From NCBI GenBank assembly GCA_028448965.1, contig JAONQT010000005.1, positions 1 through 40,976 on the forward strand: a stretch of 40,976 bases of DNA. Direction: 5' to 3'. Shown here piece after piece: positions 16,271 through 18,700 of this stretch. The stretch's first letter is position 1; each line of letters begins with the position of its first letter. A model generated the notes under the pieces. That model saw only the letters and a program-made list of their open reading frames with translations. It was not told where the DNA came from and ran no database searches. Source of the stretch: Candidatus Nitrosopumilus sp. (lineage in GTDB: Archaea; Thermoproteota; Nitrososphaeria; Nitrososphaerales; Nitrosopumilaceae). The position numbers and the translations under genes were made by a program.

Positions 16271-16699
16271 TTGAATAAAATTGAAAATTTGTTAAATAAA
16301 ATACTAAATGCTCCTGTAGGTCAAGTTGAAATGATTTTAGGTGAAGCGCTAAATTGTAATATTAAATTACAAGTCATAGAACAAAATAAAAATTCTTCAG
16401 GTCAGTTTGTGAGAAAAATTTCAATTATAGCACAAGAATTTCCAGTGATAAAAGCTAACGTAAAATTTGATTCTGCAGTCTTACCTGAATTAATTGTGAC
16501 TGATCTTTTAAAGAAAAAACATGGAATTGGAACAATTCTCAATATGAATAACATCAAAGCTACCAGAAAAATGCTGTCATTAAATCAAAATGAAAATAGT
16601 GTATTAAGAGAATATCAAATTATTCATAATGAAATAGTTTGGTTTACCATAATTGAAGAAATAAAGTTAGGCAGTCTTGGTTCCAACAATAATACATGA
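16271..16699 (+). CDS. Chorismate-lyase-like (UbiC/UTRA fold) protein, tentative
   Basis: 142 aa; IKLQVIEQNKNSSGQFVRKISIIAQEFPVIKANVKFDSAVLPELIVTDLLKKKHGIGTIL...SVLREYQIIHNEIVWFTIIEEI resembles the chorismate lyase/UTRA layout. Confidence 0.4.
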   Translation: MNKIENLLNKILNAPVGQVEMILGEALNCNIKLQVIEQNKNSSGQFVRKISIIAQEFPVIKANVKFDSAVLPELIVTDLLKKKHGIGTILNMNNIKATRKMLSLNQNENSVLREYQIIHNEIVWFTIIEEIKLGSLGSNNNT

Positions 16700-17350
16700 A
16701 GTGCCCCAAGTGAAATCTTGTCTGTTAACTGTCATTCCATAATCTCTCATAGTTTCCTCATATTCTTTAACCCAATTTGTGGTCCTTATCAGAGAAGGTA
16801 GATCAACAAATACATTTTTCCAGTTAGGAATAAAAAATCCTATAAAATAAAGTACTTTAAAGTATAAATTCCACATTTTTTGTACAAAGAGATTTTTTGG
16901 ATATGTAAAATCATGTAAAATTATTTTTCCATCTACATTTAGATGTTCAATACAATTTTTTATCAAAATTTTAGCTGTACAATATTTTGGTAGATAGGAT
17001 GTTGTAATACAATCAAATTTTTTTTCCAGATTAAGTTTTTCAGCATCTTGATTTACAAAAGAGATATTTGGATATGACATTAATTTTTTTTTTGCTTTTT
17101 CAAGATAGTTTTTAGTAATATCCACACCAGTAATTTTGGCTTGTGGTAATTTTTTTGCAATTTGTTTTGTAAGTATTCCGGTACCACACGCAAGATCTAA
17201 TACTGTTTTTTGATCAGATAATTGTTCTAAAATCTTATTTTTCCAAAGAGAGTCTTTTCCAAAAGTAGTCCAATGCACTATATTATCATATGAATTAGAA
17301 GTATTGTTAAAAAATGTAGGAACCAAATCTTTTGGATTTTCCTTAATCAT
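16667..17350 (-). CDS. SAM-dependent methyltransferase (UbiE/MenG-like class I)
   Basis: VLDLACGTGILTKQIAKKLPQAKITGVDITKNYLEKAKKKL (motif I/II), NCIEHLNVDGKIILHDFTYP. Confidence 0.85.
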   Translation of the reverse strand: MIKENPKDLVPTFFNNTSNSYDNIVHWTTFGKDSLWKNKILEQLSDQKTVLDLACGTGILTKQIAKKLPQAKITGVDITKNYLEKAKKKLMSYPNISFVNQDAEKLNLEKKFDCITTSYLPKYCTAKILIKNCIEHLNVDGKIILHDFTYPKNLFVQKMWNLYFKVLYFIGFFIPNWKNVFVDLPSLIRTTNWVKEYEETMRDYGMTVNRQDFTWGTSCIIVGTKTA

Positions 17351-17392: not shown

Positions 17393-17401
17393 TAAAATTT
17401 A

Positions 17402-17555
17402 AAAAAAATAAGACCAACGGGCTTAAGATCAATACCAAAAAGGTATCAGATGAGAGCCCATTCACTTAAGATCAGAAAGTGTCCATTTTTCTGATGACAG
17501 TGATTTAGCCTTAAAATCTCAAACGATTGTTTGTAGATGACAGACTTGGTCTTGT
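17402..17555 (-). ncRNA. Candidate stand-alone structured small RNA (about 150 nt)
   Basis: Minus strand: ATTATATAG TATA-like element (17585-17577) about 25 nt before terminal helix AAGACCAA/TTGGTCTT (17553-17546 with 17416-17409); internal hairpins CAAAC/GTTTG, CACTT/AAGTG, GGGCT/AGCCC enclosing ATACC/GGTAT; T7 run right after the closing helix (17407-17401). No good ORF. Confidence 0.55.
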
Positions 17556-17686
17556 AACTATGTTAAGCTAATTTTTCTATATAATGAGCACTCATAATTT
17601 CTACTAGTGGTAATTGCTACTAAATAGTGCCACAAATTTAGATTCCAGATAGTCTATTTATTAGAGATAGAAAGTGCAAAAGTATC

Positions 17687-18700
17687 TTGAAAATTGCTGT
17701 AATGGGAATGGGTGTAGCAGGCTCTTATCTAATGGCCAGACTAAAAGACTCGGAACATGATGTAACAGGATATGAAAGAATGCCAAGTGAAAGACATGAT
17801 TCAATTTGTGCATGGGGTACAATTAAAAAAGAATTAACTGATTTTTGTAAAAAAACTGGAAGAGATTTTAATGACTTTCTAATTCATGATGGAAAAGAAA
17901 TGCATGTTAAAATGAATGATAATGTAAAATTTGATATTGGTTTGAAAGGACTTTGTACTTACAATAAACTTGGATTGATTAAAGATTTCATTAAAGATTC
18001 TAATGTAATTTATGGAAAAGCTCCTAGATTAGCAGAAATTGAAAATGATTATGACATGATAGTGGACTGTACAGGATTTAACAGAAGTTACTTGCCAAAA
18101 ATGGAACAGGATTTCTATTTACCAACATACGAGTATAAAGTTGAATATGAAAACGGAGTTCCTTATGATGACTTTTACATTGAACCATTTCCAGGAATGT
18201 CAGGATACTTTTGGTACTTTCCATTAGGAGAAAAACATGCACATATTGGAGCAGGAGATTACAATAAAGATCACATAAAGGCAACAGATAGATTTTTGAA
18301 AAAACATGGAGGAAAAATTCTTGCAACAAAAGGACGTCCAATTAGATTAGCAACTCCAGATAAATGCAAACCATACTATTCAGGTAAAGTAGTAGGGGTT
18401 GGAGAATCAATTGGTACAGTGTATGCACTTCTAGGTGAAGGAATCATCCCATCTATGCAATGTGTGGAAATTTTCTTAGAAAACATGCATGATTTTGCAG
18501 CATATGAGAAGGCAATTGAGAAACACTATAGCGTTTATGCCAAAGTCTTTAATTTTGTAAGAGCAAAAATTCAAAATGACTTTAGTTTTCTCAAGGCACT
18601 ACCAGACTTTATTGCAATTTTCCGTTACATGAAAAGAAATGAAGACAGATTTGGAATGAAAATTAAAATTGCAGATTTACTAAAAGTTGCTAAAGCCTAA
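17687..18700 (+). CDS. Geranylgeranyl reductase family FAD-dependent oxidoreductase
   Basis: MKIAVMGMGVAGSYLMARL Rossmann; YFWYFPLGEKHAHIGAG; VGVGESIGTVYALLGEGIIPSM; TTG start with TATTTATT about 27 nt upstream. Confidence 0.85.
   Translation: MKIAVMGMGVAGSYLMARLKDSEHDVTGYERMPSERHDSICAWGTIKKELTDFCKKTGRDFNDFLIHDGKEMHVKMNDNVKFDIGLKGLCTYNKLGLIKDFIKDSNVIYGKAPRLAEIENDYDMIVDCTGFNRSYLPKMEQDFYLPTYEYKVEYENGVPYDDFYIEPFPGMSGYFWYFPLGEKHAHIGAGDYNKDHIKATDRFLKKHGGKILATKGRPIRLATPDKCKPYYSGKVVGVGESIGTVYALLGEGIIPSMQCVEIFLENMHDFAAYEKAIEKHYSVYAKVFNFVRAKIQNDFSFLKALPDFIAIFRYMKRNEDRFGMKIKIADLLKVAKA

Follow-up and report, generated by a model that had tools for sequence, protein, structure and literature searches.

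A repeated internal-loop module marks a predicted family of small RNA genes in Nitrosopumilaceae

In the window, that is, the whole 40,976-nt stretch of Nitrosopumilus DNA analysed, we identified a predicted structured RNA of ~145 nt (17553-17410, minus strand) in which three arms present one and the same small internal loop. Comparison of genomes places it in a hitherto undescribed RNA family of the Nitrosopumilaceae, whose module is carried by genes with one, two or three arms; that the module is common to a family of separate genes is not visible from the window alone. This comparison may be taken to establish the RNA fold and its strand, the module and the family, as well as the link between the hairpins and a promoter element. 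As the best explanation of the whole we propose, with a probability of about 0.5, that the module RNAs are most likely decoys or scaffolds recognised by a partner.

An earlier note on this DNA had proposed that the minus strand encodes a stand-alone structured RNA with its own TATA box, and both parts of the proposal stand. The RNA folds into a four-way junction, with a terminal helix (P1) closing three arms (P2 to P4) and a U-run directly after P1, where the note had seen it (Table 1). The MFE of -49.6 kcal/mol compares with -28.8 +/- 3.5 for shuffled sequences (z = -5.9; 0/200 shuffles as stable). A three-arm covariance model (R1) matches the window's genome at 17410-17554 with 127 bits, and the transcript would start near 17553-17560. 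There is no notable open reading frame in the RNA, the longest stop-to-stop frame lying mostly inside it being 38 aa. The TATA-like ATTATATAG reported at 17585-17577 is present on the minus strand, and two of the proposed hairpins, CAAAC-AATC-GTTTG and GGGCT...AGCCC around ATACC-TTTTT-GGTAT, were recovered in both the sequence and the fold. The terminal repeat AAGACCAA/TTGGTCTT exists and pairs, with its 3′ half at 17417-17410, one base off the position first given. A further hairpin had been read as CACTT-N9-AAGTG; its letters are present, but it is neither formed nor conserved, and the actual arm in its place is UCACU-GUC-AUCAGAAA...UUUCUGAU-CUUA-AGUGA.

Table 1. Features of the predicted RNA locus and the genes beside it (window coordinates).
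Feature	Position	Strand	Basis or remark
Candidate upstream promoter element CACTAGTAGAAATTATGAGTGC	17588..17609	(-)	CTAGTAGAAATTATCAGTA in relatives; common to most homologues and single-hairpin genes; element-hairpin coupling genome-wide
TATA box ATTATATAG	17577..17585	(-)	Position kept in 29/29 homologues
Three-armed RNA, P1 to P1	17410..17553	(-)	Fold, covariation, covariance model
Terminal helix P1, 5′ strand AAGACCAA	17546..17553	(-)	Sequence and fold
Arm P2 with module	17507..17546	(-)	Internal loop GUC 17541-17539 / UUUA 17515-17512
Arm P3 with module	17462..17503	(-)	Internal loop GUC 17498-17496 / CUUA 17470-17467
Arm P4 with module	17419..17459	(-)	Internal loop CUC 17454-17452 / CUUA 17427-17424
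Terminal helix P1, 3′ strand TTGGTCTT	17410..17417	(-)	Sequence and fold
Eight-T run past the closing helix, candidate terminator	17401..17408	(-)	Sequence only
UbiE-like methyltransferase gene	16667-17350	(-)	Same strand, downstream of the RNA
Reductase-like gene, divergent from the RNA	17687-18700	(+)	Weak GGR-type matches

Conservation and covariation extend through the genus. Nucleotide search (E below 1e-3) returned clear homologues, full-length or partial, in about 40/60 same-genus genomes, and 29 of these homologues were taken into an alignment; most of them form the same four-way junction when folded individually. With the structure fixed, 86.7% of the alignment cells are paired, and both sides have changed in at least one sequence at 28/51 pairs. 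Of 500 shuffles, 0 came up to the alignment in pairing percentage, in pairs changed on both sides or in covariation score, and in a control in which partner columns were slid by 1-3 positions pairing went down to 31-45%. P1 aligns weakly, with 64.8% of its cells paired across the 29 homologues, because its sequence and length differ between clades. G-U cells far outnumber A-C cells in the arm alignment (39 vs 3), which settles the minus strand as the RNA strand; the consensus energy of the alignment is -53.3 on this strand vs -44.8 on the opposite one.

P2, P3 and P4 have in common one asymmetric internal loop, 5′ NUC / 3′ CUUA. In the three arms its 5′ strand reads [G/C]UC and its 3′ strand CUUA, and it is bounded by a U-A pair on the outer side and an R-Y pair on the inner side. 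The earlier note had seen a sequence repeated twice, with TGATCTT mostly in loops, and had read this as suggestive of a repeated antisense seed. We found instead three copies in the window of a larger unit, CU-[G/C]UC-AUC...GAU-CUUA-AG (one copy reads UUUA), in which TGAT is helix and only CTT lies in the internal loop. Across 50 arms, taken both from three-arm genes and from singles, no variation occurs at loop positions U7, C8, U36, U37 and A38 or at the closing A39, and C35 is kept in 49/50. The helices on both sides of the loop covary (92% paired; 0/500 shuffles), the helical part of the repeat changing with compensation (AUC/GAU, GUC/GAC, ACC/GGU), and the apical loops differ from arm to arm. 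An invariant two-sided loop between compensating helices points to a recognised three-dimensional motif and not to an antisense seed. A kink-turn reading of the loop was rejected by inspection of either strand, there being no tandem G-A.

The near-invariance of the internal loop, its rigid spacing and the lack of an Rfam relative would also suit an RNP machine not yet recognised, with this RNA as its core, or an RNA that binds a ligand or acts as a catalyst by itself, in place of a decoy. We consider this unlikely, as an essential machine would hardly be present so patchily, with copy number and valency that change (see below), and a ribozyme or an aptamer would be expected to have a larger invariant core than the one of about 7 nt seen here. 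Trans-acting antisense pairing of TGATCTT or of the loops with mRNAs is rather unlikely. Such an sRNA could well be a stand-alone transcript with repeated sequence, and antisense sRNAs are known from archaea, for instance sRNA162 of Methanosarcina mazei (PMC3510493); however, half of the putative seed is helical and covarying, the invariant strands of the loop are too short for a seed, and the apical loops vary.

Copies of the module outside the three-arm gene were found by pattern search, and a covariance model of the single arm (R2) was run on the genomes. In the window's genome it matches P2, P3 and P4 with E of 1.8e-7, 8e-8 and 1.1e-7, respectively (R1 and R2 E-values are rough). The module was detected in 13/15 genomes, with 2-15 R2 matches per genome; weak R1 matches of ~30 bits, for the most part single arms or due to chance, were left out of the three-arm count. 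Once three matches are subtracted for the three-arm gene, the number of single hairpins is, for example, 1 in G006, 3 in G007, 4 in G052, 6 in G022, 8 in G013 and 10 in G054, so that a complete genome with the module may have as many as about ten singles. A genome of another genus (G083) holds seven singles and no strong three-arm gene, and one other genus has a two-arm gene (G111, G114). The window RNA, with a NUC/CUUA loop between covarying helices and a TATA about 27-30 nt ahead, has the features of this family. Second three-arm copies in which the middle-arm module has been lost were also observed (L077, L081, L082, L083, L085, L086), four of them 116-120 nt before a DUF6659 gene.

Among 300 genomes of the phylum, module matches are confined to the window's family, Nitrosopumilaceae, where they occur in 7 genera; none was found outside it. 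A pattern scan of the whole collection placed 35/36 matches in records of Nitrosopumilus, Nitrosopumilaceae/-ales or marine thaumarchaea, the remaining one, on an Oscillospiraceae contig, being presumably due to chance. Two module patterns gave 0 matches in virus contigs (IMG/VR), and a viral origin was rejected on this ground. No match to the RNA was obtained in G021, G056, G030 and G048, which are of the same genus and fairly complete, and genera g15 and g18 are without the module; such genomes may serve as contrasts in a search for the partner protein. Since some genomes of the genus more than 90% complete are without the module, it is not essential to the whole group.

The module genes share upstream signals. 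A TATA box lies 27-30 nt before P1 in 29/29 three-arm homologues, and a perfect YTAAATA 25-36 nt ahead of the core in 28/47 single hairpins (0.13 expected); some single copies are without a clear TATA. Most single copies and homologues have in addition a common element upstream of the TATA, including ATCAGTA: in a genome of 1,645,259 bp, the sequence upstream of the three-arm gene reads CTAGTAGAAATTATCAGTACCTGTTAAATA and that of the singles CGTAGAAATTATCAGTA...TCTAAATA. Loci of the family in this genome are at 324,578-324,721 (+), 520,106-520,146 (-) and 1,004,150-1,004,190 (-). When six genomes were scanned for AATYATCAGTANNNYCTAAATA (AATYATCAGTA-N3-YCTAAATA) with at most 2 mismatches, 28 sites were obtained vs 2 in a backwards control. 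Comparison by hand put 24/28 of the sites directly upstream of an arm-model match, and one further site precedes a degenerate hairpin missed by the arm model (L194). Element matches at G083:C1:1086186, G022:C1:63822, G007:C1:901687 and G052:C1:1081489 have no recognisable hairpin. The element was not found at the tRNA genes examined, which were rejected as sharers of it. Taken together, the TATA spacing, the directional upstream element and the G-U/A-C asymmetry argue for transcription in one direction.

The position of three loci is kept from species to species: the three-arm RNA by the reductase gene, a single hairpin by a plastocyanin-family gene and another single by a gene that we take, from its sequence, to be ABC1-kinase-like. 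The last arrangement was seen in three genomes. The plastocyanin-side hairpin, present in three genera, is divergent from its neighbour, and its end coincides with the stop codon of a convergently oriented gene of unknown function; a link to copper-protein expression is possible. The loci concerned are L094-L100, L130, L147 and L156. The conserved loci and the differing extra copies suggest that the family consists of ancient fixed members and lineage-specific copies.

Scattered intergenic copies whose number and place differ between species could also represent a dispersed palindromic repeat, a REP/MITE-like mobile element without cellular function. One locus would fit this: two inverted module hairpins with near-identical upstream sequence lie 1.9 kb apart (L124; G054:C1:561146, 563024), a pair that may be part of a larger inverted duplication. 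We hold a mobile element to be improbable all the same. REP/MITE repeats are likewise dispersed intergenic palindromes, but the module genes differ from them in having their own promoters, with TATA and promoter element retained, in the positional conservation of the three loci, and in compensatory changes under conserved loops. As for a RAYT-type transposase, 11 genomes yielded only one degraded Y1_Tnp (Y1 transposase) trace.

The upstream neighbours of the three-arm gene are kept across species and comprise rpS12 and rpS7 (ribosomal names that we assign from sequence), tRNA-Gln, a CxxCxxCC protein and the reductase. The downstream neighbour varies, being a nitroreductase, a methyltransferase, an acetyltransferase-like or an unknown gene, or is convergent (L072, L080). 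In many species a same-strand gene begins 14-99 nt past the RNA (a nitroreductase, or in the window the UbiE-like methyltransferase, at 17350), an arrangement that a cis-acting leader such as a riboswitch or an attenuator would also produce. That reading is quite improbable, as the gene downstream changes or converges while the upstream neighbours are constant, and the nitroreductase genes have an apparent TATA-like TTAAATTT of their own about 29 nt ahead of the ATG; we did not assign the RNA to the riboswitches or leaders. Because the genes downstream vary or converge, the three-arm RNA probably acts in trans. A role at the DNA level, or as a bidirectional transcription terminator, which the position of several singles 2-44 nt beyond the stop codon of a convergent gene might suggest, is very improbable in view of the asymmetry of 39 to 3, the TATA spacing and the directional element.

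Comparison with known RNAs gave no match to the family. Rfam 15 returned tRNA-Gln matches only for the window at the gathering threshold, chance matches only for the RNA region at E<=10, and only a tRNA for the single- and two-hairpin loci. Rfam and inspection for boxes bear out the earlier note in that the RNA is not RNase P, SRP or C/D RNA, and it gave no Rfam match to a known housekeeping RNA. Archaeal C/D box sRNAs are small non-coding RNAs too, and their models gave weak chance matches far below gathering scores; the transcribed strand is without a box C (UGAUGA), and this class was rejected. Archaeal H/ACA guides have one to three hairpins with an internal loop in each, but here the loop is identical in all module copies; they were rejected for lack of a k-turn and of tandem G-A, and because a U-run and not ACA follows P1.

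Closer in design are CsrB/CsrC and RsmY/RsmZ of bacteria, stand-alone RNAs repeating a short recognition hairpin, with several genes per genome. Their loop is GGA, whereas the module is a two-sided internal loop, in archaea, and sequestration of a partner is here a proposed role. Y RNAs, bound by Ro/Rsr, resemble the module RNAs in being small and stand-alone with a conserved irregularity in the stem. CsrA and TROVE/Ro proteins are the best-known partners of such RNAs. CsrA (PF02599) is absent in 11 genomes searched, and the CsrB/RsmZ type was rejected for want of a CsrA/RsmA partner, the repeated hairpins on a stand-alone RNA notwithstanding. TROVE (PF05731) is absent in 14 genomes searched; with no Ro/Rsr partner there and no Rfam match, Y RNA was rejected as well. 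We did not find the module RNA reported in the openly licensed papers searched. The abundant uncharacterised archaeal ncRNA Tan1, of 229 nt, has marine Euryarchaeota as its host (PMC5069720), and Nitrosopumilus is not mentioned in a paper on 104 motifs (PMC2864571).

The decoy or scaffold explanation thus takes the following form. A small non-coding RNA gene with a TATA promoter of its own would be transcribed on the minus strand, and its RNA would fold to a four-way junction, each arm presenting the same NUC/CUUA loop flanked by U-A and purine-pyrimidine pairs. One partner acting in trans, probably an RNA-binding protein other than CsrA or Ro/TROVE, would recognise the module, and the module RNAs would serve as multivalent decoys or scaffolds with valency set by copy number, much like RNAs that sequester proteins. 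Display of a binding site in trans is favoured because the universal part is a small loop on variable stems, in separate transcription units with differing neighbours, and the presence of one, two or three module copies in different genera fits the valency of such a site. Tentatively, at a little short of even odds, we would see here a lineage-specific archaeal RNA-protein regulatory system, in which a dedicated promoter element upstream of TATA drives a multigene family of RNAs showing 1-3 module copies to an RNA-binding protein.

In the sea, ammonia-oxidizing archaea rank among the most abundant cells, and neither the Rfam scan of the window nor the papers searched gave a non-coding RNA family specific to them. 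The present family has a clear, repeated and covarying module, several genes per genome and a shared promoter element. The module may offer a direct bait for an archaeal regulatory RNA-binding protein and the promoter element a way into transcriptional control, and an apparent copy of the family in the cultured strain N. maritimus makes the proposal testable.
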